This document shows positions 3 to 13,590 of a stretch of DNA of 14,170 nt, piece after piece. Position numbers and translations under genes: made by a program. Each line of letters starts with the position of its first letter. Within the stretch, counting starts at the first letter, position 1. Where the stretch lies: the NCBI GenBank assembly GCA_002686955.1, contig NYZA01000221.1:1-14170 (forward strand). Reading direction: 5' to 3'. Source of the stretch: Gemmatimonadota bacterium. Its GTDB lineage: Bacteria > GCA-2686955. A model generated the notes under the pieces. The model was not told the DNA's origin, did not search any database, and saw only the letters and a list, made by a program, of their open reading frames with translations.

Positions 3-1130
3 AACGGTGCGAAGCACCGCCAGGGCACGAATCTGCGCCGCCTCGCGACGAAAGTTGGTGAGAAATGCGGGCTAGCTCTCCTCCTCGCTCCCCTTCCACT
101 CGAACCGGCCCGCGCTGATGCGCCCGTCGACTCATCCGCCGCGGCCGGAGGCCTCGAATGGGCTGTGCAGCCGCTCCTCTCCTGGAGCGCCGAACAGGGG
201 GTGGGAGCGGGCCTGCGAGTCTACCTGATCGGTCCACCCCCCGCGCTCTCTCGCGTCCAGGCACAGGCATTCGCCGCGCAACACGATTTCTGGAGCGTTC
301 AGCTCGCCTACCGCAGCTACCGCTTTGCGGGCACCCGCGTGACGATGCGCGGCTCCCTGCTCTGGGAGGAGGATGGAAGCTCTCGCTTCTTCGGCGTCGG
401 CAACGATTCCGCGCTGGGAGACCAGGTTCGCTTCGGACGCAACCGTTTCGCGATCGCGCTCGAGCCGGGGCGTCGCTTCGGCGCGGGCTGGGAGACCCGT
501 CTGCGTCTGAAGCTGGCCAGCGAAGCGCTCGATTTCGATCCCGATCCGACGCGGATCGGCGGCCGCGATTTCGCGTCGGGTGAGACACTGAGCAGTGTCA
601 TCGCGGCGGTGCTCCAGCACGATCGGCGCGACGTGGAGTGGGCGCCGACGCGAGGGAGCCTGGCCCGGCTCGAGTTGGGGCGTGCGCTCGGTCCCGACCT
701 GAGCTACTGGCGCTGGAGAGCCGAAGTGCGCGCTTACCACGCGATCTTCTCCCAGCTCGTGCTGGCGGGGCGAGTGGAGATCGACGCGCTCGTCGGCGAC
801 GATCTTCCTTTCTATGTCATGCCGATCTACGGCGGAGCGACCTATGGACGGGGGCAGTTCGCCGGGCGCTTCCGCGACCTGGTGCGCCGCGGCCTCGCCG
901 CGGAAATACGCTGGGATCCCCTTCCCCGCGCCGGACTCGTCGCTTTCGTCGACGCAGGCGAAGTGGCCCCGGGAGCCTTCGCCGCAGCCCCGGGACCGAT
1001 CCACACAGGCGCCGGACTTGGCCTGCGCTTCACCCCCGGTCCCCCGGGCCTGATCGCTCGTCTCGACTTCGGATACGGAGGGGGGACCGAAGGGCTACAC
1101 ATCTATCTGAACTTCGGGCACGCTTTCTGA
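3..1130 (+). CDS. Omp85/D15-type outer-membrane beta-barrel protein, 5' partial
   Basis: This reading frame is open from the left edge of the window, so the gene probably begins outside it; no ATG or GTG precedes the hydrophobic stretch encoded at about 66-116 (CGLALLLAPLPLEPARA), which looks like a Sec signal peptide. The mature part alternates short amphipathic strands and turns typical of a transmembrane barrel. Near 838-882 it carries YGRGQFAGRFRD, which resembles the conserved (L)RGY...GRFRD loop of the surface antigen D15/Omp85 superfamily, and the protein ends in an aromatic residue (NFGHAF), as outer-membrane barrels usually do. No POTRA domains are visible, so it looks like a barrel-only member of roughly 375 residues rather than full BamA or TamA. 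Such proteins sit in the outer membrane; the cargo or partner cannot be inferred. A CTG at 33 is a less likely start. I am fairly sure of the family and unsure of the exact role. Confidence 0.75.
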   Translation, partial: NGAKHRQGTNLRRLATKVGEKCGLALLLAPLPLEPARADAPVDSSAAAGGLEWAVQPLLSWSAEQGVGAGLRVYLIGPPPALSRVQAQAFAAQHDFWSVQLAYRSYRFAGTRVTMRGSLLWEEDGSSRFFGVGNDSALGDQVRFGRNRFAIALEPGRRFGAGWETRLRLKLASEALDFDPDPTRIGGRDFASGETLSSVIAAVLQHDRRDVEWAPTRGSLARLELGRALGPDLSYWRWRAEVRAYHAIFSQLVLAGRVEIDALVGDDLPFYVMPIYGGATYGRGQFAGRFRDLVRRGLAAEIRWDPLPRAGLVAFVDAGEVAPGAFAAAPGPIHTGAGLGLRFTPGPPGLIARLDFGYGGGTEGLHIYLNFGHAF

Positions 1131-1237: not shown

Positions 1238-1266
1238 TTGACCAGCCGATACCCGCCTACTATCAT
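1238..1266 (+). promoter_or_regulatory. Sigma70-type promoter for the 1272-1382 RNA
   Basis: TTGACC (1238-1243) and TATCAT (1261-1266) each match five of six bases of the sigma70 consensus hexamers and are separated by exactly 17 bases. Transcription would start around 1272-1274, the base where the perfect 12-bp stem of the downstream RNA begins. This coincidence is the main reason to believe it. Confidence 0.7.
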
Positions 1267-1271
1267 GACGA

Positions 1272-1382
1272 TGTCGCCCGGGTATCCTACCCATTTTCCC
1301 TACCACACATCCTACCAATGCTCCCACCCGGGCGACACTAATCACGGGGCGTCCTGTCGCAAGACGAGGCGCCCCGTTTTTT
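1272..1382 (+). ncRNA. Candidate small regulatory RNA or structured leader, about 110 nt
   Basis: The predicted transcript starts with TGTCGCCCGGGT (1272-1283), which pairs perfectly over 12 bp with ACCCGGGCGACA (1326-1337). The enclosed 42-nt loop is pyrimidine-rich, almost free of G, and contains three copies of CCTACC at 1286-1291, 1299-1304 and 1311-1316. A 6-nt linker leads into an intrinsic terminator (1344-1382). An unstructured C-rich loop with repeated motifs, capped by a stable stem and followed by a terminator, is typical of trans-acting small RNAs that pair with G-rich mRNA sites. The RNA ends 15 bases before the next start codon, so a cis-acting leader of the membrane-protein gene at 1398 is the alternative. 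The 5' stem and the terminator do not share bases, which favours a stand-alone RNA. I recognise no known RNA family. Confidence 0.6.
1344..1382 (+). terminator. Rho-independent terminator
   Basis: ACGGGGCG (1344-1351) pairs perfectly with CGCCCCGT (1370-1377). The top of the hairpin forms GTC-GCAA-GAC (1356-1365), a GNRA-type tetraloop, and the stem runs into six consecutive T residues (1377-1382). It is the clearest terminator in the window. Confidence 0.88.
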
Positions 1383-1397
1383 CGTGATGGCCAACCG

Positions 1398-2927
1398 ATG
1401 ATCCGCTTCCCCGCCGATCGTCTCGGCGTCGACGCGGCGGGCGTCCGCGCACTTCACAAGGCGTTTTGGCTCACGACACGCCGCGTCGACCGCCGGCGCA
1501 AAGTAGGGCGTTGGGGGCTGCGCCTCCTTTTCTTGGCAGCCGGCGTTCAGGCGTCGACCCATGTCGACGGCACGGCGGCGGGAGACGCGGCGGCACTCCT
1601 CTATCTCGCCGCCTACTTCCTGCCCCTCGTCTTGCTGGACCACGCCGCCGTCCTCTCGGAGCCGTATGACCTCAGTCGCATCGGCCATCTCCCGGTCCAC
1701 AGGGCGACCTACTATCTCGCCCGCCTCACGACGAGCACGCGGCTCCTCGCTCCCATGCTCGCGGTCTTCGTTCTGCCCGCCGCGTTCCGGGCGCCCGGCC
1801 ATCTCTTCGCCTATGCCGTCGCCGGAGCCGCCCTCTGCACCGCCCTACTCATGCTCGCCAACGGAATCCAGCGCTGGTTCGCCGGCGATGGGGGCCGCAG
1901 CACCGCCCAGCGACGTCTGGCACTTCTTCAGGCGGCCACCATGCTGCTCTACGTCGGAGGCCTCGGCGGGCTGCGGCGACTCCTCGGCGAAGGCGCGGAG
2001 CCGCCGAACTGGCTGACCGCCCCCTGGCAGCCGACCCAGTGGTTCGCCTCCCTCGGCGGCCCCATGCGGCCCGGTGCCTCACCAGCGGCGGCCCTCGCCG
2101 CCCTCCTCTTGGCCGCGGCCGGAGCCTTCTTGGCCTTTCGCCCCACTTCTTGCGCCCACCGCCCACCCATCACGACGACAACCGTCCACCGATCGCCCAC
2201 CTGGCGCCCGCCGCGCTTCGTCCTCAGATGGCTTTTCCCGGGAATGAGGGGCGTGGCGGTCGGTCGCCTGCTCATTTCGCACATTCGACACGACCCCCGC
2301 GTCTTCGCTCAGATCGCGGCCGTCGTCCCCGCCTCGGCGTTGATCCTCGCCGGAACAATGGCCGACGCGGAGCTACGAGACCCCTTCCTGAGTTCGGGGC
2401 AAACCACCACCTGGGGAGTCCTTTATGCCTATATTCTGCTCGTCTACGTCATCCTCTGCGACGGCGTCTCCCGCTCGTCGAACGCCTCCGCCGCCTGGAT
2501 ATTTCGGGCGGCTTGCGTCGATCCAGCGCAGCCCTTCGAGCAGCTTCAGCGGATCATGCGCGTCATGGTGTTCTGGCCCTACCTCTTCGCCCTGAGCGGA
2601 TTCCTGACGCTGCACCACGGCCACCCGCTCCACGCCTTCCTGCACGGCCTCCTGCTTGCACTCGCCGCCGAAGTCGTGGTCAACCTCCTGCGCGCCATTC
2701 GACCGAGGCACCCCTTCAGCGAAGAGCTCGGTGGCGGCGCCCAACCGGTCCGCCTACTCTCCCGCAACCTCCTCATCGCGGCCGTGGGATCGCCCCTGCT
2801 TCTCGTCGTCCACCATTGCGGCCTGCGACTCCCATGGGCCTACGTCGGAGCACTTCTCCTTCTGACTCTTCTCGCAGCATCGCTCTCCCGGCTGGCGACG
2901 GCGCGCGCTCGAACCGAATTGGCCTAG
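1398..2927 (+). CDS. Multi-pass membrane protein, ABC-2 exporter permease-like
   Basis: This 509-residue protein has about ten to twelve hydrophobic segments (for example near residues 64-82, 117-155, 175-192, 229-247, 305-322, 340-360 and several to the C terminus). It has an N-terminal cytoplasmic stretch of about 40 residues rich in Arg and Lys. The segment around residues 90-110 (YDLSRIGHLPVHRATYYLARL region) resembles the D-L...LPVSR..Y..AR-L motif that follows the first membrane segments of ABC-2-type exporter permeases, so it may form the membrane part of an ABC exporter. No ATPase gene lies in the window, which would be unusual for such an exporter. The ATG at 1398 has only a weak ribosome-binding site (GATGG at 1386-1390), and the coding region begins 15 bases after the terminator at 1382. 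Transcription may therefore depend on readthrough of that RNA or on an unseen promoter. Membrane location is near certain; the family is tentative. Confidence 0.7.
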   Translation: MIRFPADRLGVDAAGVRALHKAFWLTTRRVDRRRKVGRWGLRLLFLAAGVQASTHVDGTAAGDAAALLYLAAYFLPLVLLDHAAVLSEPYDLSRIGHLPVHRATYYLARLTTSTRLLAPMLAVFVLPAAFRAPGHLFAYAVAGAALCTALLMLANGIQRWFAGDGGRSTAQRRLALLQAATMLLYVGGLGGLRRLLGEGAEPPNWLTAPWQPTQWFASLGGPMRPGASPAAALAALLLAAAGAFLAFRPTSCAHRPPITTTTVHRSPTWRPPRFVLRWLFPGMRGVAVGRLLISHIRHDPRVFAQIAAVVPASALILAGTMADAELRDPFLSSGQTTTWGVLYAYILLVYVILCDGVSRSSNASAAWIFRAACVDPAQPFEQLQRIMRVMVFWPYLFALSGFLTLHHGHPLHAFLHGLLLALAAEVVVNLLRAIRPRHPFSEELGGGAQPVRLLSRNLLIAAVGSPLLLVVHHCGLRLPWAYVGALLLLTLLAASLSRLATARARTELA

Positions 2928-5207: not shown

Positions 5208-6821
5208 ATGGACATTCTAGAAAGCAGAATCGACGTCGAAGGCGAGGAGTTCCTCGCCAACCGCGAGGCGATGCTCGCTCTGGTCACCGAGCTTCGCGGT
5301 GAGCTGGAGCGCGCCCGAAACGAGCGATCCGAGAAAGCCCGTGCGCGTCACGTGCGGCAAGGCAAGCTCCCGGTTCAGGAGCGTCTCGAGTCGCTGCTCG
5401 ATCCCGGAACACCATTCCTCGAGATCGCTCCCCTGGCCGCGAAAGGGATGTACGATTCGAAGGTCCATGCGGCGGGGATCCGCGGCGGCATCGGCGTCGT
5501 GGAGGGACGGGAGGTGCTCGTCATCGCGACCGACGCGATGGTCAAGGGGGGCAGCATGTACCCCATGAGCGTCAAGAAGTCGATCCGGCTGCAACAGATC
5601 GCGATGGAGAACCGACTGCCCGTGATCAACATGATCGATTCCGGGGGCGCCTATCTTCCGCTGCAAGCGGAAGTGTTTCCTGATGCAGACGACGGCGGTC
5701 AGGTCTTCTACAATCAGGCCCATATGTCGGCCATGGGAATTCCTCAGATCGCCGCCGTGATGGGGTTGTGTACCGCCGGCGCGGCGTACATCCCCGCCAT
5801 GTCGGATCACGTTGTTCACGTCAAGGGGACAGGCGCCATATTTCTAGGCGGTCCTCCCCTGGTGAAAGCCGCGACCGGCGAGATCGTCGATCAAGAGACA
5901 CTCGGTGGCGCGGATCTGCACTGCCGCCAATCCGGTGTATCCGACTACTCCGCCGAGGACGACTACGACGCCATTCGGCGGATCCGGGCTCTGGTCCGGC
6001 GTCTTCCGCCCTCGCCCAAGCAGGTGCCGCATACTCGAGCTCCGCGGGAACCGATCTACGCACCCGAAGAGATCTACGGCATCGTTCCGGCGCGTCTGAG
6101 CGTACCGTACGATGTGCGCGAAGTGTTGGCACGTATCCTCGATGGGAGTGAGCTGCTCGAGTTCAAGCCGCTCTTCGGCCCGACGCTCGTTTGCGGTTGG
6201 GCGCATATCCACGGCTATCCCGTCGGCGTGGTCGGAAACAACGGTGTGCTCTTCTCCGAGAGCGCGCTCAAGGCAACACAATTCATTCAGCTTTGCGATC
6301 GAGAAGGCGTGCCGCTCGTCTTCTTCCAGAACATCAGCGGCTTCATGATCGGAAAGGACTATGAGGCGGGCGGAATCACCAAGCACGGCCATAAGATGGT
6401 CGCGGCGGTTTCGCTCACCCGGGTCCCGAAATTCACCGTGATCATCGGTGGATCGTTCGGCGCCGGGAACTACGCGATGTGCGGGCGCGCGTACAAACCC
6501 AGAATGTTGTGGATGTGGCCGAATGCGCGGATCAGTGTCATGGGGGGGGAGCAGGCCGCCGATGTTCTCGTGACGGTCAAGAACGAGCAGCTGGCCCGCG
6601 AGGGGCAGCCCCCCTTGACCGCCGAGATCGAATCCGCCATGAAGGAGCCCGTGATCCGGATGATCGAGGGCGAATCGGATCCCTGGCACAGCACGGCGAA
6701 TCTCTGGGACGACGGAATCGTCGATCCCGCCAAGACCCGTGATCTGCTGGGGTTGGCGATCTCCGCTTCGTGGAATCAGCCTCTGGCCGAGCGCGCCCCT
6801 TGGGGCGTGTTCCGAATGTAG
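5208..6821 (+). CDS. mccB: Methylcrotonyl-CoA carboxylase beta (carboxyltransferase) subunit
   Basis: The 537-residue product is a biotin-dependent acyl-CoA carboxyltransferase that moves CO2 from carboxybiotin to the acyl-CoA. Hallmarks of the methylcrotonyl-CoA family run the whole length: NREAMLALV near residue 18, KARARHVRQGKL, RLESLLDPGTPFLE, VKGGSMYP, MIDSGGAYLPLQAEVFPD, the oxyanion-hole region with GLCTAGAAYIPAMSD, IFLGGPPLVKAATGE, YGIVP, NNGVLFSESALK, NISGFMIG, GGSFGAGNYAMCGRAY, WMWPNARISVMGGEQAA and the terminal GVFRM. Length and order match full-length family members. Geranyl-CoA or another branched acyl-CoA substrate is possible, but leucine degradation is most likely. The ATG start has no strong ribosome-binding site. 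The next gene follows after only 7 bases, giving a carboxylase operon. Confidence 0.93.
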   Translation: MDILESRIDVEGEEFLANREAMLALVTELRGELERARNERSEKARARHVRQGKLPVQERLESLLDPGTPFLEIAPLAAKGMYDSKVHAAGIRGGIGVVEGREVLVIATDAMVKGGSMYPMSVKKSIRLQQIAMENRLPVINMIDSGGAYLPLQAEVFPDADDGGQVFYNQAHMSAMGIPQIAAVMGLCTAGAAYIPAMSDHVVHVKGTGAIFLGGPPLVKAATGEIVDQETLGGADLHCRQSGVSDYSAEDDYDAIRRIRALVRRLPPSPKQVPHTRAPREPIYAPEEIYGIVPARLSVPYDVREVLARILDGSELLEFKPLFGPTLVCGWAHIHGYPVGVVGNNGVLFSESALKATQFIQLCDREGVPLVFFQNISGFMIGKDYEAGGITKHGHKMVAAVSLTRVPKFTVIIGGSFGAGNYAMCGRAYKPRMLWMWPNARISVMGGEQAADVLVTVKNEQLAREGQPPLTAEIESAMKEPVIRMIEGESDPWHSTANLWDDGIVDPAKTRDLLGLAISASWNQPLAERAPWGVFRM

Positions 6822-6828
6822 GTCTCGA

Positions 6829-8325
6829 GTGTTCAAGAGAGTGATGATCGCGAACCGGGGCGAGATCGCGGTTCGAATCATGCGCACCTGTCGCTCGATG
6901 GGCATCGAAACCGTCGCTGTCTACTCCGATGCCGACGCCGATGCTCTACATGTTCGTGTTGCCGATCGATCGGTCCATCTCGGTGGCGCGGCGCCGAATG
7001 AGAGCTATCTGAGCGTGGATCGGATTATCGACGCGGCCCTTGGGTCCGGCGCGGAGGCGATCCATCCCGGCTACGGCTTTTTGGCCGAAAGCGAGCAGCT
7101 CGCTCGTGCGTGCGTGGAGAGTGGAATCGTGTTCGTGGGACCCTCCGCCGATGCCATCGCGGCCTTGGGCAACAAATCCAGTGCGCGGTCGTGCGCCGAG
7201 TCTTGCGGCGTGCCGGTGATTACCGGTGCAACCCTCGCCGGGAACGGCGCGGGCACCGAAGATCCGGAAACTCTCGCGGCGAAGATCGGTTATCCCCTGC
7301 TCATCAAGGCTGCCGCCGGTGGAGGCGGCAAAGGGATGCGGCTCGTGTCGAATTCGTGTGAGCTCCGAGACGCGATCGATGCGGCCGGCCGCGAGGCGCT
7401 GAACGCATTCGGAAGCGCGGAGCTCATCTTGGAGAGGTTCCTCGAGCGATCTCGCCATGTCGAAGTGCAGATTCTCGGGGATCTGCATGGAAATATCGTA
7501 CATCTCTTCGAGCGGGAATGCTCGATACAACGAAGGCATCAGAAGATCTTGGAAGAGGCGCCCGCGCCCGCGCTGGAGAGGCGGCTTCGCGATGAGATTT
7601 GCGATGCGGCCCTTCGCCTGGCGACGGCCGGTGGCTACACGAATGCGGGCACCGTCGAGTTCCTCATCGACGAGGAGGGAGGGTTCTTCTTCCTCGAAGT
7701 GAACACGCGGCTCCAGGTCGAGCACCCGGTCACGGAGGCGGTGACGGGATTGGATCTGGTCGCCGCTCAGCTCCGTGTGGCGGCCGGTGAGAAACTGAGA
7801 TGGGAGCAGGAAGCGATCACCTGTCGAGGGCACGCCATCGAGTGTCGCGTCTACGCCGAAGACCCCGCCGCGGCCTTCATGCCCTCACCGGGCACGATCT
7901 TGCATCAGGAGGAGCCGGTCGGCCCGGGCATCCGCGTCGACAGTGGCGCCGTGTCGGGGAGCGAGATCCCGATCGATTACGATCCGATCGTGGCCAAGCT
8001 TATCGCTTGGGGCGAAGACCGCGACTCCGCTCGGGGTCGAATGGCGCGGGCCCTCAGCGAGTATCCGATTCTGGGCATCGCGACCACGATCCCATTCCTT
8101 CACGATCTGATCGCGGCCCGGGCTTTCGCGGAGGCGCATCTGTCGACCCGCTTCATCGATGAACATATGGCCTCCTGGACACCCCGGCGCGACGCACTCG
8201 CCGAAGCCTTGGTTGCGTTCGTCGCGGACGCTCGCGAGCCGGTGGCGGCGGCCCCCCGAAACCGATGCGCGGACGAGCAGTCTCACCCTTCCCCTTGGGC
8301 CGGCCTCGGCCGGTGGAGGTTATGA
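6829..8325 (+). CDS. mccA: Methylcrotonyl-CoA carboxylase alpha, biotin carboxylase part
   Basis: The 498-residue protein is the ATP-grasp biotin carboxylase that charges biotin with bicarbonate using ATP. Visible landmarks are KRVMIANRGEIAVRI at the N terminus, AIHPGYGFLAE, the glycine-rich ATP loop AAAGGGGKGM (about residues 161-169), RHVEVQILGD, ERECSIQRRHQKILEEAP, the metal-binding EVNTRLQVEHPVTEA (from E290) and IECRVYAEDP. The start is a GTG 7 bases after the mccB stop, because translation from it gives the family N terminus directly; the upstream extension of the frame overlaps mccB. Usual alpha subunits of this family are about 650-670 residues and carry a C-terminal biotinyl domain. 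Here the chain stops at PSPWAGLGRWRL, the point in the linker domain where fused homologues read roughly SPWA..DGWRLN. The remaining part is encoded by the overlapping next gene. Confidence 0.92.
   Translation: MFKRVMIANRGEIAVRIMRTCRSMGIETVAVYSDADADALHVRVADRSVHLGGAAPNESYLSVDRIIDAALGSGAEAIHPGYGFLAESEQLARACVESGIVFVGPSADAIAALGNKSSARSCAESCGVPVITGATLAGNGAGTEDPETLAAKIGYPLLIKAAAGGGGKGMRLVSNSCELRDAIDAAGREALNAFGSAELILERFLERSRHVEVQILGDLHGNIVHLFERECSIQRRHQKILEEAPAPALERRLRDEICDAALRLATAGGYTNAGTVEFLIDEEGGFFFLEVNTRLQVEHPVTEAVTGLDLVAAQLRVAAGEKLRWEQEAITCRGHAIECRVYAEDPAAAFMPSPGTILHQEEPVGPGIRVDSGAVSGSEIPIDYDPIVAKLIAWGEDRDSARGRMARALSEYPILGIATTIPFLHDLIAARAFAEAHLSTRFIDEHMASWTPRRDALAEALVAFVADAREPVAAAPRNRCADEQSHPSPWAGLGRWRL
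8315..8319 (+). promoter_or_regulatory. Internal ribosome-binding site for the biotin carrier gene
   Basis: GGAGG sits inside the end of mccA. It is 8 bases from the ATG at 8328 and only 2 from the ATG at 8322, so it favours 8328 as the start and supports separate translation of the biotin carrier protein. Confidence 0.7.
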
Positions 8326-8327
8326 CC

Positions 8328-8843
8328 ATGGAGCTCCGGATCGCCGAGGAGGAAGAGAGGCACCTGGTCAGTGCCCGGAGGCTGGAATCGGGCTCGTGGC
8401 AAATCGGTGTCTGTGGTGAGGAGAAGACCGTCCGATGGCGGCGGCTGGATCGGCACCGATTGTGGATCGAGATCGGGGGTCGCGCGCGTGTGGCCCACAT
8501 CGCATCGATCGGATCGAAGAAGCAGATCTTCGTGGCTGGGCAGACCTTCCTCCTGGAGGATTCGTCGTCTATTCCCGCCCCCAAGCGAGGCGAACACGGA
8601 TCGGACTCCGGAGCGATCGTACCACCCACGCCGGCGGTGGTCTCGCGTGTGCTCGTGCGCCAGGGTGATCCGGTTCGCAAGGGAGATGCCGTCATCGTCC
8701 TCAGCGCCATGAAGATGGAGACCACCCTACGGGCACACTGCGACGGCGAGATCGCCGCCGTCCACGTCGCGGAAGGGGCGCGCGTGTCACCGGGTGAGGT
8801 GCTCGTGGAGTTGCGCGGCCGACGATCGTCGATTCCCCTCTAG
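8328..8843 (+). CDS. Biotin carboxyl carrier protein, split-off C-terminal part of carboxylase alpha
   Basis: The 171-residue product ends in a biotinyl domain: GAIVPPTPAVVSRVLVRQGD, then VLSAMKMETTLRAH with the lysine to be biotinylated at residue 129, and a second half-motif of DGEIAAVHVAEGARVSPGEVLVEL. Residues 1-80 are strand-rich (MELRIAEEEERHLV, WQIGVCGEEKTVRWRR, LWIEIGGRARVAHIA). They resemble the distal half of the linker domain that joins biotin carboxylase to carrier domain in fused alpha subunits. The start is set by the GGAGG at 8315-8319; an in-frame ATG at 8322 overlaps the mccA stop as ATGA, so translation is probably coupled. With mccB and mccA it would complete the carboxylase. 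A frameshift in a once fused gene is the alternative explanation. Confidence 0.88.
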   Translation: MELRIAEEEERHLVSARRLESGSWQIGVCGEEKTVRWRRLDRHRLWIEIGGRARVAHIASIGSKKQIFVAGQTFLLEDSSSIPAPKRGEHGSDSGAIVPPTPAVVSRVLVRQGDPVRKGDAVIVLSAMKMETTLRAHCDGEIAAVHVAEGARVSPGEVLVELRGRRSSIPL

Positions 8844-8967: not shown

Positions 8968-11900
8968 GTGCCGACCCGACAGTTTCCGGAGATCTTCTTG
9001 GCTCCAGCCATTCCGGCCAGGTATCGCGTCGTCGAGCAAATCGGCGAGGGCGCCGCGAGCATCGTGTATCGCGCCATCCGTCGGATCGACGGCTGTGAAG
9101 TCGCCATGAAGATCCACCGGGAGCCGCGCAGCGGAGCGGAGCTCGTCGCCTTTCACAGGGAATTCCGGATTCTCGCCGAGCGGCCGCATCGCAGTCTGAT
9201 AAGGGTCTTCGATTGCGGCGTTCACGATGGCAACCCCTTCGTCGTAATGGAGTTGGCGAAGGGGGGGGACGCGGAGGCCCTTGTCGGCGACTTCCCCGCG
9301 GAGCGACTGCGGGGGGTTGCCGCGGATCTGCTCGAGGGCTTGGCCCATCTCCATGCCCAAGGACTGGTCCACCGCGATCTGAAGCCGGGAAACCTGCTGG
9401 TGGGGGAGGGGAGCTCCGGGCCAACGCTGAGGATCGCCGATCTCGGCCTCTCCGCTTCGGTCGACGAGAACGAGGCCAGCATCGCGGGCACACCGGGCTA
9501 TCTGGCGCCCGAGTATCTCGATGGGGCGCCACCTTCCGTCCGCACCGATCTCTTCGCGCTCGGTTCGTGCCTGTGCGAATTCGCCTGCGGCCATCCCGCG
9601 TTCCCATCCTCTGATCCGGTCAAGGCAATGGTCGAGGCACGAGAGGGGCCTCCGGCGATCATCGAACAGGAGGCGCCGCGGATCCCCCAAGACATCCGGG
9701 AGCTGATCGGCCGGCTCCTCGATCCTCTGCCCGCCCGGCGTCCCGCATCGGCCGAGGCGGCCCTCGAGATGCTCGACGGCGTCGCTGGGCCGACGGGTGG
9801 TCGGCTGGCGCAACCGAGATTGGTCGGGCGCGAAGAAGCGATCGAGGCGATCCGGTGGTCGTTGACCCTTTCGGCGCGCCGCCGTCGTCTCTACTCGACC
9901 TACCTGGCCTGCGAGCCGAAGTCGGGAGGCACGCGTTTGATCTCCGAGGCCGCCACGCTCGGCCGCCGCCTGGGCGTCTCGGTGCATTCGATCGCACCGG
10001 CACCGGGTGAGGACGGACACGCGGCCTTGGCCCGCGCGCTTTTCACCGCTGAGCTCGACCGTCTCGATGCCTGTGGTGGAGCTCCCGTCGCGGATCGGGC
10101 AACATGGTCGACGATTCGAGGCGTCGTTCAGGCGCTCGATTCGGCCGAGACCCCGCCACGGGAAGGGAGCGATGGGGAGAGCGCCGACATTTTCGGCCTC
10201 ATCCTCGCTTTCGGCGCGGTCCTAAGCGAGCTCGCTCGGCACAGAAGAACGCTGCTCCTCGTCGATGCGCCGAAGAGCGCCATGCCACTCGTGGAGAGGT
10301 TGCGCGCCGCGATCCACGGTACCGCGTCGGAAGGGAAGCTGGCGCTGGTGACCGCGCTCCCGCGCTCCGAATCGGTTCGAATCGTCGACAATGGGGACAC
10401 CCACCGAAGGGTGGTGCTCGCGCCGCTCGATCTGGATGGCAGCCGGCGGATGCTCGAGAGCATGCTGCATTCCGAGCGGCTCACGAACGAATTCGTGAGC
10501 GCCGTGCATGCGGCCACTCAGGGCGCTCCGGGCGCCCTGGAAGAGGCGGTCCGCTCCCTGATGCGCACGGGGCAGCTTCGATACGACGGGCGCTGGACCG
10601 CGGAGCTTCCCGGCGCTCGCTTTGAGGTGCCCGAGGCCGAGGAAGGCGAAGCGGTGGCGTTTCCTAGCAACCTCGGAGATGTCGAGCGGCGAGCCGCGGA
10701 GAGCCTGGCCGTTCTCGGCGATGCGACCCTGGCCCTTCTCGCGGCGGTCGCCCGTCGCGAGGTGGTTGAAACGGGCGAGGCCGTGGATCGACTGGAGGCG
10801 CTCGGGTTCGTGGTCCGTCGGCACGACGCTATGGCCCCATGGGCGGAGCCGACTCTACATTTCTCCTCTCGGTCCACGGCCCGTTCGCTGCTCGCCGAGC
10901 TCAAGCCGGTGGCGCGCGCGGTGCTTCACGGTCGTGCGGCCGACGCGCTGGCGGCGGAGATCGAACGGTTCGACCGTGCGACCCGTCCCCGGGCTCATGC
11001 CAGGATCGCCCAGCATCTGGGCGAATGCGGCGACTACCACGGCGCCCGAAACGCCCTCGACGCATCGGGAGAGGGGTACGCCGCCCTCCATCTCTATGTT
11101 GAAGAGGCGGAGGCGCTTGCAAAGTTCGTAGAAGCACACAAAGAGCGCGCTCCGAGCGAGCTGATCGAGGAGCTCCGTCTGGCATGGGGCAGAGCGCTCG
11201 ATCGGGCGGGCAGGGGGAGCGAGGTCGGTCCGGCATTGGAACCGGTGCTTCGATCGGACGATGCCTGGCGCAAGGCCAGCGCGGCGGCGCGTCTGGCCAA
11301 AGCGCTTCTGGGCACGGAACGGATCGATGAAGCGCGGCGTGCGCTCGAGATCGGAGTCCCGGCGGTCAGCTCGCTGCCTGTTGGGGTCGCGGGATCTCTG
11401 CGCGTGGTCCTGCTCCATCGCTTGGCGCTGGTTCAATTCTCGGAGGGGGACGCTGACGGTTGCCAGGAGGTGTTGGACGAGACCGAGGCACTGCTCGACC
11501 GGATTCCTGACGGTCGCGAGCAGCGCGCGAGGATTCAAACGACCCGGGCACGGATCGATCTGGCGAAGGGCGATCGGGATCGAGCGGAAGAGAAATACTC
11601 GGCGGCTCTCTCGGTGTTCGAGGAGGTCGACGATCACAGGCGGGCCACCGCTTGCGAGGTTGCGCTCGGAGCGATCCTCTACCAGCACTCCGAATTCGCC
11701 GGGGCGGCACGCTACTTCCACGATGCCGCGGATCGGAGCAGAAAGGCCAACGATCTTCGGGGCTATCTGGTGGCGCTCTCGAATCGGGCGGTGGCTCAAT
11801 CGGATGGCGGCTCCTGGGCGGAGGCGGCGGAATCGTATCGCGACGTGCTCGCGGTCGCCAAGGGTATCGGCGATCTGCGGACCCGCATGCGCACCCTGAA

Positions 11901-13590
11901 CAATGTGGGCCTCTTGCTACGCGATCGCGGGGAGCTGCGCCGGGCGCGAGCGATGCTCGGCGAGGGCTTGGATCTCGCCAGAACACTGGAGGATCCGGGA
12001 GCGGAGGCGATCCTGGAGGGGAATACTGGCGAGCTCGAGCTCGTAGAGGGGAATCCCGATCTCGCACGGAGCCATTTCGACAACGCCGCGATCGGCATCG
12101 TCGCCGCGGCGCCCGAGCTCGAAGGGGATCCTCTCTTGGAACGTCCGGACGGGATCGAGGCCACTCGTCGGATCGCCGCTTGGGAAGCGGAGTACGGCAA
12201 TCTCGAGCTGGCTCGCGCCATGGTCGTCGCCACCGTCGGGGCTGCCCGGCGCGTCGGCGCGAAGGCGGAGCTGGCGCAGCTCGCCGCCGTCTCGGGGCTG
12301 ATCACGGAACGGTCCGGATCGGATGAGAAGGCGCTGCTGCGCTACGCGAGGGCCCGCCGCGCGATGGAGCTCCTGAATCTGAAGCACGCGGCTCACCGGG
12401 TCGACATCGCCAGGGCTCGGCTTCTGCTGAAGGCCCGCAGGCATGGCGCCGCGCGCGCCCTGCTCGAGCACGCAATGGAGGGATTGGAGCGGCTGGGCGC
12501 TCTCGGAGACCACGGCGAAGCCAATCGCGTCATGATGGAGATCGAGGACGACGAGCCTCTGAACAGGGAGCACCCGCGCTTCACCCCCGGCGACCATCTT
12601 CTGAAGCACCTGCTCGAGATCACGCTGCAGATCAACGCGATCCACGAGCTCGACCCCCTCCTCGATCTGATCGCGCAGAAGACCGTCGAGTTGACTGGTG
12701 CGCGGCGCGCCCAAGTCTTCCTTCGCTCCAGCGCCGACGACGGGCCCCAGTTGGCGGCCTCCGCCTACCGAGAAGGCTCGGAGGCGTTGGACGGCAGCTA
12801 CAGCCGGTCGTTCGTCGCCGATGTTCTTCGCTCTGGAGAATCTCTCGTCGTAACCAACGTCGCCGACGCGGGCGAGATCGCCCGTCGCTCATCGATCAGA
12901 AAGCTACAGCTCCGTTTCATCATCGGTGTGCCGGTCTCAGACATCGAAGGAGTGATCGGCACGCTCTACGTCGACGACGACCGAGCCGTTTACGATGTGA
13001 GTCGCGAGGAGCTCTTCGTGCTTCAATCCCTGGCGAATCAGGCCGCCCTCGCCATCAGGAACGCGCGACTCTTCGAACGGGCGACCGTCGATGATCTCAC
13101 GCGGGTCGCCATGCGCCACTACTTCATCCAGCGCATGGAGGAGGAATTCCACCGGTGTCGGCTGCGCCATCTGCCGCTTTCGCTGCTCATGCTGGACATC
13201 GACCATTTCAAGTTGGTCAACGACCAGTTCGGACACGCGGCGGGTGACGAGGTGTTGGCCGGAACCGCGGCGGTCATTCGCGAAATCATCGGAGAAGCCG
13301 GTATCGTCGGTCGTCTCGGTGGAGAGGAATTCGCCGTCGCCTTGTCCGCAATCGATGCAGAGCAAGCGATGATCATCGCCGAAGAGATCCGGCGGAGTGT
13401 CGAGACGACGCTCTTCCTCCCCGACCATCGGATCACATTCAGTATCGGTGTCGTGACATTGACACCGGAGGCGAACGAGAGCCTGGATCGTCTGCTCCCG
13501 GCGGCCGATGCGGCCCTCTACGATGCCAAGAGACGCGGCCGAAATCGTGTCGTGCAGACCGACAACGCGAGCATCGCTACGGTCGAATGA
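8968..13590 (+). CDS. Ser/Thr protein kinase-ATPase-like-TPR-GAF-GGDEF fusion protein
   Basis: This protein of up to 1540 residues joins a kinase to a diguanylate cyclase. Residues 19-270 are a Hanks-type Ser/Thr kinase with an intact active site: IGEGAASIV loop, K48, E65, catalytic H135-R-D137-LKPGN, D158-L-G and APE at 180-182. Residues 285 to about 560 resemble the signalling-ATPase module usually found here (LVGREEAIEAI), but its P-loop reads ACEPKSGGT (314-322), lacking the first glycine and the lysine. The Walker B-like LLLVDA (D433) lacks the second acid. About residues 690-1190 are helical, Ala/Arg/Glu-rich TPR-like repeats. A GAF domain spans about 1211-1370, and a GGDEF domain about 1372-1532 with DIDHFK (D1410) and GGEEF (1451-1455). 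The inhibitory RxxD site is absent (GEAG). Start: GTG at 8968, or more likely TTG at 8998, which has GGAGA six bases upstream. It probably couples phosphorylation or a ligand signal to c-di-GMP synthesis. Confidence 0.92.
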   Translation: MPTRQFPEIFLAPAIPARYRVVEQIGEGAASIVYRAIRRIDGCEVAMKIHREPRSGAELVAFHREFRILAERPHRSLIRVFDCGVHDGNPFVVMELAKGGDAEALVGDFPAERLRGVAADLLEGLAHLHAQGLVHRDLKPGNLLVGEGSSGPTLRIADLGLSASVDENEASIAGTPGYLAPEYLDGAPPSVRTDLFALGSCLCEFACGHPAFPSSDPVKAMVEAREGPPAIIEQEAPRIPQDIRELIGRLLDPLPARRPASAEAALEMLDGVAGPTGGRLAQPRLVGREEAIEAIRWSLTLSARRRRLYSTYLACEPKSGGTRLISEAATLGRRLGVSVHSIAPAPGEDGHAALARALFTAELDRLDACGGAPVADRATWSTIRGVVQALDSAETPPREGSDGESADIFGLILAFGAVLSELARHRRTLLLVDAPKSAMPLVERLRAAIHGTASEGKLALVTALPRSESVRIVDNGDTHRRVVLAPLDLDGSRRMLESMLHSERLTNEFVSAVHAATQGAPGALEEAVRSLMRTGQLRYDGRWTAELPGARFEVPEAEEGEAVAFPSNLGDVERRAAESLAVLGDATLALLAAVARREVVETGEAVDRLEALGFVVRRHDAMAPWAEPTLHFSSRSTARSLLAELKPVARAVLHGRAADALAAEIERFDRATRPRAHARIAQHLGECGDYHGARNALDASGEGYAALHLYVEEAEALAKFVEAHKERAPSELIEELRLAWGRALDRAGRGSEVGPALEPVLRSDDAWRKASAAARLAKALLGTERIDEARRALEIGVPAVSSLPVGVAGSLRVVLLHRLALVQFSEGDADGCQEVLDETEALLDRIPDGREQRARIQTTRARIDLAKGDRDRAEEKYSAALSVFEEVDDHRRATACEVALGAILYQHSEFAGAARYFHDAADRSRKANDLRGYLVALSNRAVAQSDGGSWAEAAESYRDVLAVAKGIGDLRTRMRTLNNVGLLLRDRGELRRARAMLGEGLDLARTLEDPGAEAILEGNTGELELVEGNPDLARSHFDNAAIGIVAAAPELEGDPLLERPDGIEATRRIAAWEAEYGNLELARAMVVATVGAARRVGAKAELAQLAAVSGLITERSGSDEKALLRYARARRAMELLNLKHAAHRVDIARARLLLKARRHGAARALLEHAMEGLERLGALGDHGEANRVMMEIEDDEPLNREHPRFTPGDHLLKHLLEITLQINAIHELDPLLDLIAQKTVELTGARRAQVFLRSSADDGPQLAASAYREGSEALDGSYSRSFVADVLRSGESLVVTNVADAGEIARRSSIRKLQLRFIIGVPVSDIEGVIGTLYVDDDRAVYDVSREELFVLQSLANQAALAIRNARLFERATVDDLTRVAMRHYFIQRMEEEFHRCRLRHLPLSLLMLDIDHFKLVNDQFGHAAGDEVLAGTAAVIREIIGEAGIVGRLGGEEFAVALSAIDAEQAMIIAEEIRRSVETTLFLPDHRITFSIGVVTLTPEANESLDRLLPAADAALYDAKRRGRNRVVQTDNASIATVE
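8988..8992 (+). promoter_or_regulatory. Ribosome-binding site suggesting a TTG start at 8998
   Basis: GGAGA lies about 6 bases before an in-frame TTG at 8998, whereas the GTG at 8968 is preceded by a C/T-rich stretch with no ribosome-binding site. Use of the TTG would shorten the protein by 10 residues and leave the kinase domain intact. Confidence 0.5.

Follow-up and report, generated by a model that had tools for sequence, protein, structure and literature searches.

We found that positions 1238 to 1382 on the forward strand of the window, the whole stretch of 14,170 nucleotides analyzed here, almost certainly hold an RNA gene under strong selection. The 67-nt stem-loop core of the gene shows no difference (67 of 67 positions) between two genera of the same family, in which the surrounding genes have diverged strongly. 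Since no Rfam match and no further homologue was found in the sets searched, this identity indicates from sequence that the small RNA is a new, previously undescribed RNA family whose sequence is strongly selected, and the RNA very probably has an important regulatory job. In a lineage for which hardly any genomes exist and in which Hfq was not detected, such invariance of a 67-nt RNA between two genera, stricter than that of RNase P RNA, points to a core regulator. Regulation by a C-rich loop with several sites, or alternatively the titration of a protein, could be tested here in a compact system beyond the model bacteria.

Structure of the small RNA gene

The original prediction described a complete small RNA gene with a promoter, a 12-bp stem, a 42-nt G-poor loop, and a GNRA-capped terminator with six T. 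All of these elements lie where they had been placed, and their positions, together with those of the two neighboring genes, are listed in Table 1.

Table 1. Features of the small RNA gene and its neighbors in the window
Feature	Position	Strand	Basis or remark
Omp85-superfamily outer-membrane protein (upstream neighbor)	165..1130	+	Start probably further upstream
Sigma-70-like promoter, TTGACC-N17-TATCAT	1238..1266	+	Promoter scan; counterpart in G001
-35-like box, TTGACC (17-nt spacer follows)	1238..1243	+	
-10-like box, TATCAT	1261..1266	+	
Predicted transcription start	1271..1273	+	5 to 7 nt past the -10 box; both the stem and the conserved block begin here
12-bp perfect stem, 5' arm	1272..1283	+	Fold; identical in G001
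Single-stranded loop, 42 nt	1284..1325	+	Fold; identical in G001
YCCYACC copy 1, TCCTACC	1285..1291	+	
YCCYACC copy 2, CCCTACC	1298..1304	+	
YCCYACC copy 3, TCCTACC	1310..1316	+	
YCCYACC copy 4, TCCCACC	1322..1328	+	Degenerate; extends 3 bases into the 3' stem arm
12-bp perfect stem, 3' arm	1326..1337	+	Fold; identical in G001
Intrinsic terminator	1344..1382	+	Fold; hairpin 1344-1377 with a GCAA loop, then T at 1377-1382
Membrane protein without Pfam match (downstream neighbor)	1398..2927	+	

The promoter is the only sigma-70-like match between positions 900 and 1800 of the window (shuffle expectation, 0.0). The predicted transcript is about 111 nt long, and its gene is single-copy in the genome. 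The minimum-energy fold of the RNA from 1272 to 1382 consists of the 12-bp stem, the 42-nt loop, and the terminator hairpin, with a free energy of -48.4 kcal/mol (z = -7.3), and none of the 200 shuffled sequences was equally stable. As in a free-standing, intrinsically terminated small RNA, a stable fold is flanked by a promoter and an intrinsic terminator of its own, and the whole is conserved as a unit.

The loop is composed of 20 C, 11 U, 10 A, and a single G, and is thus as poor in G as had been claimed. The three CCTACC motifs reported at 1286, 1299, and 1311 are present, but the count of three was too low, as a degenerate fourth copy begins at 1322. When the motif is written as YCCYACC, the four copies start at steps of 13, 12, and 12 nt, and the C-rich motifs sit in the single-stranded loop, as in the C-rich-loop sRNAs. 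The window contains the triple and the fourfold motif array one time each, and neither was present in 5 Mb of first-order Markov sequence with the dinucleotide make-up of the window. When both strands of the two genomes compared below were scanned for three YCCYACC copies, the matches fell solely at the small RNA.

Conservation between two genera

The gene was compared between two genomes of the same phylum, that of the window (G000) and that of another genus of the same family (G001). The nucleotide identity between the two was 84.6% for RNase P RNA, 66% for the coding DNA of the upstream Omp85 gene, about 53% for the terminator sequence, and about 50% for the upstream intergenic DNA, and RpoB was 84% identical in amino acids. 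Neither the 12-bp stem nor the loop varies at all between the genomes. The promoter of G001 reads TTGACG-N18-TAACAT and lies 5 nt from the stem, as in G000.

The conserved block starts at the predicted transcription start and ends just before the terminator, and these limits are what a free-standing RNA gene predicts. In the terminator itself the fold is kept in G001, with four base pairs changed on both sides, three changed on one side, and none broken, a count from two sequences that is not statistical proof. Because the fold is kept through four compensatory changes, the RNA appears to be a unit that ends at this terminator. The original prediction was to be given up if related genomes showed no conservation; with the stem-loop identical in G001, and the promoter and terminator kept in this second genus, the reading as a complete small RNA gene is strongly supported.

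A short leaderless coding region (MSPGYPTHFPYHTSYQCSHPGDT...) was considered in place of the RNA, as there is an open frame from the predicted start. The original prediction had argued against coding on the ground that the repeats all fall in different reading frames; since copies 2 to 4 follow at 12-nt steps and share one common frame, this argument fails, and the shared frame speaks for coding instead. However, every synonymous site is unchanged between G000 and G001, the frames continue into unrelated residues with no stop codon common to the two genomes, and a perfect stem and a terminator surround the frame. Because the synonymous sites are unchanged and no stop is shared, the conservation is not accounted for by protein coding; this reading is largely refuted and has hardly any credibility left.

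The position of the terminator, whose end lies 15 nt upstream of the start codon at 1398, raises the possibility that the stem-loop is a cis-acting leader or attenuator of the downstream gene, which would sense something and control read-through of the terminator. The small RNA precedes the same gene in G001, in agreement with such a role. However, neither genome showed the alternative pairing of leader and terminator expected of an attenuator or riboswitch. No antiterminator was found, and in both genomes the pairing of the loop with the terminator did not exceed that with shuffled sequences of the terminator (best pairing, -10.7 versus a shuffled mean of -11.3 [standard deviation, 2.8] and -11.9 versus a mean of -10.0 [standard deviation, 3.1]). 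Furthermore, the terminator sequence has diverged freely, in contrast to the fixed loop, the start of the downstream gene seems to lie further away in G001, and the protein to be controlled is only 32% conserved. Control in cis is, in our judgment, improbable.

Range of homologues

The original prediction recognized no described family, and Rfam agreed: the search of the window with Rfam 15 gave no family at the gathering score (best weak matches, E = 0.47 to 7, far below the cut-offs), and the G001 contig gave none either. Among the matches listed in a scan of public genomes for three CCTACC motifs, a homologue enclosed by the stem was seen in the G001 contig alone, which belongs to a metagenome-assembled genome submitted as 'Gemmatimonadetes bacterium'; further homologues in these genomes may have escaped the scan. 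No homologue of the small RNA was found in plasmids and phages. In viral contigs, a stricter loop pattern gave no matches, and a stem-plus-motif scan gave four matches of 15 nt.

A covariance model run over 386 bacterial genomes gave strong matches (106 bits) in G000 and G001 only; since the two sequences behind the model are almost the same, it could overlook more divergent relatives. Three weak matches (22 to 24 bits) were read as chance, since neither the stem nor the motif array is present in them. A search of 93 genomes from three phyla (those of G135, G067, and G173), which are among the nearest by RpoB, likewise gave no homologue.

A separate observation concerned RNase P. Besides the full RNase P RNA, G000 contains a second, sub-threshold RNase P-like match of 64.8 bits (C72:6956-7194; locus L378), which has no blastn similarity to the locus of the full copy and where no Rfam family reached the gathering score.

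Proposed mode of action

The mechanism that we favor, with slightly more credence than doubt, is that of a trans-acting C-rich-loop sRNA like LhrC, sX13, or RsaE. RNA polymerase would start at the first base of the 12-bp stem, so that the stem would cap the 5' end and hold open the almost G-free loop, and the intrinsic terminator would end the RNA and protect its 3' side. The loop would present four near-identical 7-nt sites, about one helical turn apart, which would base-pair with purine-rich GGURGGR-like stretches at the ribosome-binding sites of several mRNAs and block their translation. The four sites could be redundant or could engage several targets simultaneously.

This antisense mechanism is proposed because the loop anatomy resembles that of the proven C-rich-loop sRNAs LhrC and sX13. 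LhrC of Listeria monocytogenes likewise has several redundant C-rich sites in one short, G-poor sRNA, and it acts on G-rich sites before start codons: each of its three UCCC/CU-rich sites is able to bind such an mRNA site (PMC4132741). However, the three sites of LhrC lie in two loops and a linker, whereas the four sites here share one large loop, and LhrC has five genomic copies and binds Hfq, whereas the present RNA is single-copy and Hfq was not detected. The Xanthomonas sX13 is also a conserved, free-standing RNA with C-rich loops, which target G-rich motifs close to start codons independently of Hfq (PMC3771888). It differs in having three loops with CCCC or CCCCC in place of one 42-nt loop with YCCYACC, and there is no sequence relation between the two. 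RsaE/RoxS and the UCCC-loop sRNAs of Staphylococcus and Bacillus, as far as they are described in PMC4132741, likewise use a C-rich single-stranded motif for ribosome-binding sites; the motif there is UCCC instead of YCCYACC, the architecture is another one, and the RNA described here has no Rfam match.

Hfq (PF17209) was found in 5 of 14 control genomes and in neither G000 nor G001; since each of the two is about 84% complete, its absence is not certain. As Hfq was not detected, pairing with mRNAs would probably be Hfq-independent.

The original prediction had proposed pairing with GGUAGG-like ribosome-binding sites and a scan of mRNA leaders for GGTAGG. The proposal is plausible by analogy with the C-rich-loop sRNAs, and a scan of limited scope did not demonstrate it. 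The search covered ATG starts, the motif form GGTAGGR, one position window, and the two incomplete genomes, with the reversed motif as the control. In this search GGTAGGR was not enriched 2 to 11 nt before ATG, with 62 sites versus 78 control sites in G000 and 38 versus 61 in G001, and none of the sites examined lay before related downstream genes in both genomes.

One DNA match between the two genomes was considered as a common target site and rejected as a separate element. This 80-nt stretch (L285:1555-1634 in G000, at the end of the locus, and L286:1301-1380 in G001) is 80% identical and has unrelated genes beside it. It may be the end of a repeated or mobile element.

Sequestration of another RNA was also considered. 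Four near-identical sites would suit a sponge that titrates a small RNA carrying a GGUAGG-like sequence, and the target search in G000 and G001 found no mRNA targets, which is in line with this function. However, no partner RNA was identified, and no repeated GGTRGGR array was found elsewhere in either genome, though a partner would need one site only. We regard a sponge as very improbable.

In sRNAs that act by pairing, the seed is as a rule better conserved than the stems. The invariance of the stem, equal to that of the loop, therefore counts against antisense pairing and would fit better with a single partner that recognizes the entire RNA. It was also considered that the regularly spaced C-rich sites of the loop bind and titrate an RNA-binding protein, with Rho as the most natural candidate. 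The primary sites of Rho are YC dinucleotides in C-rich, G-poor single strands at regular spacing, and the loop, with 20 C to one G and its motif steps of 13, 12, and 12 nt, fits this description. A closed loop under a strong stem could hold Rho without offering a free strand to move along. That no common mRNA target was found in the search of G000 and G001 is also compatible with a protein decoy.

Published rut descriptors include YC dimers 9 to 13 nt apart in C>G bubbles (PMC9160355) and a regular C every 11 to 13 nt (PMC6407284). The loop is an unstructured C>G stretch with regularly spaced YC dimers, although this discriminates poorly, since many C-rich stretches would satisfy it. Rho rut sites and the loop are alike in being C-rich, G-poor, and unstructured with C at 11- to 13-nt steps (PMC9160355, PMC6407284). 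They differ in that the C-rich stretch here is shorter, lies in a closed loop, belongs to a free-standing RNA that ends in an intrinsic terminator, and has a fixed sequence. Rho sites are described as 70 to 80 nt long (PMC6407284), compared with the 42 nt of the loop. Since any C-rich stretch meets the YC rule, binding of this kind leaves unexplained why every loop base, spacers included, is fixed. Titration of an RNA-binding protein such as Rho is the main rival of antisense pairing but rather unlikely.

A putative four-site closed-loop decoy, its tandem sites about one helical turn apart, that titrates a global C-rich-RNA-binding protein, either Rho or an unknown chaperone of a phylum-level lineage without detected Hfq, is decidedly unlikely. 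If true, it would explain the frozen stem, spacers, and motifs alike.

Neighboring genes and other features of the window

In G001 the small RNA gene lies between the same two neighbors as in G000. The Omp85-superfamily protein has an orthologue at the same place that is 57% identical in protein sequence, and the orthologue of the downstream membrane protein, also at the same place, has 32% amino-acid identity. Beyond the membrane protein, both genomes have an HD-domain (HD_5) gene, the G001 copy of which was read from sequence only.

Elsewhere in the window, positions 5208 to 8843 contain a biotin-dependent acyl-CoA carboxylase cluster with carboxyltransferase, biotin carboxylase, and biotin-carrier genes. 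Positions 8968 to 13590 encode a 1540-amino-acid protein with an N-terminal protein-kinase domain and TPR repeats, and its C-terminal part, judged by eye, resembles GAF and GGDEF domains.
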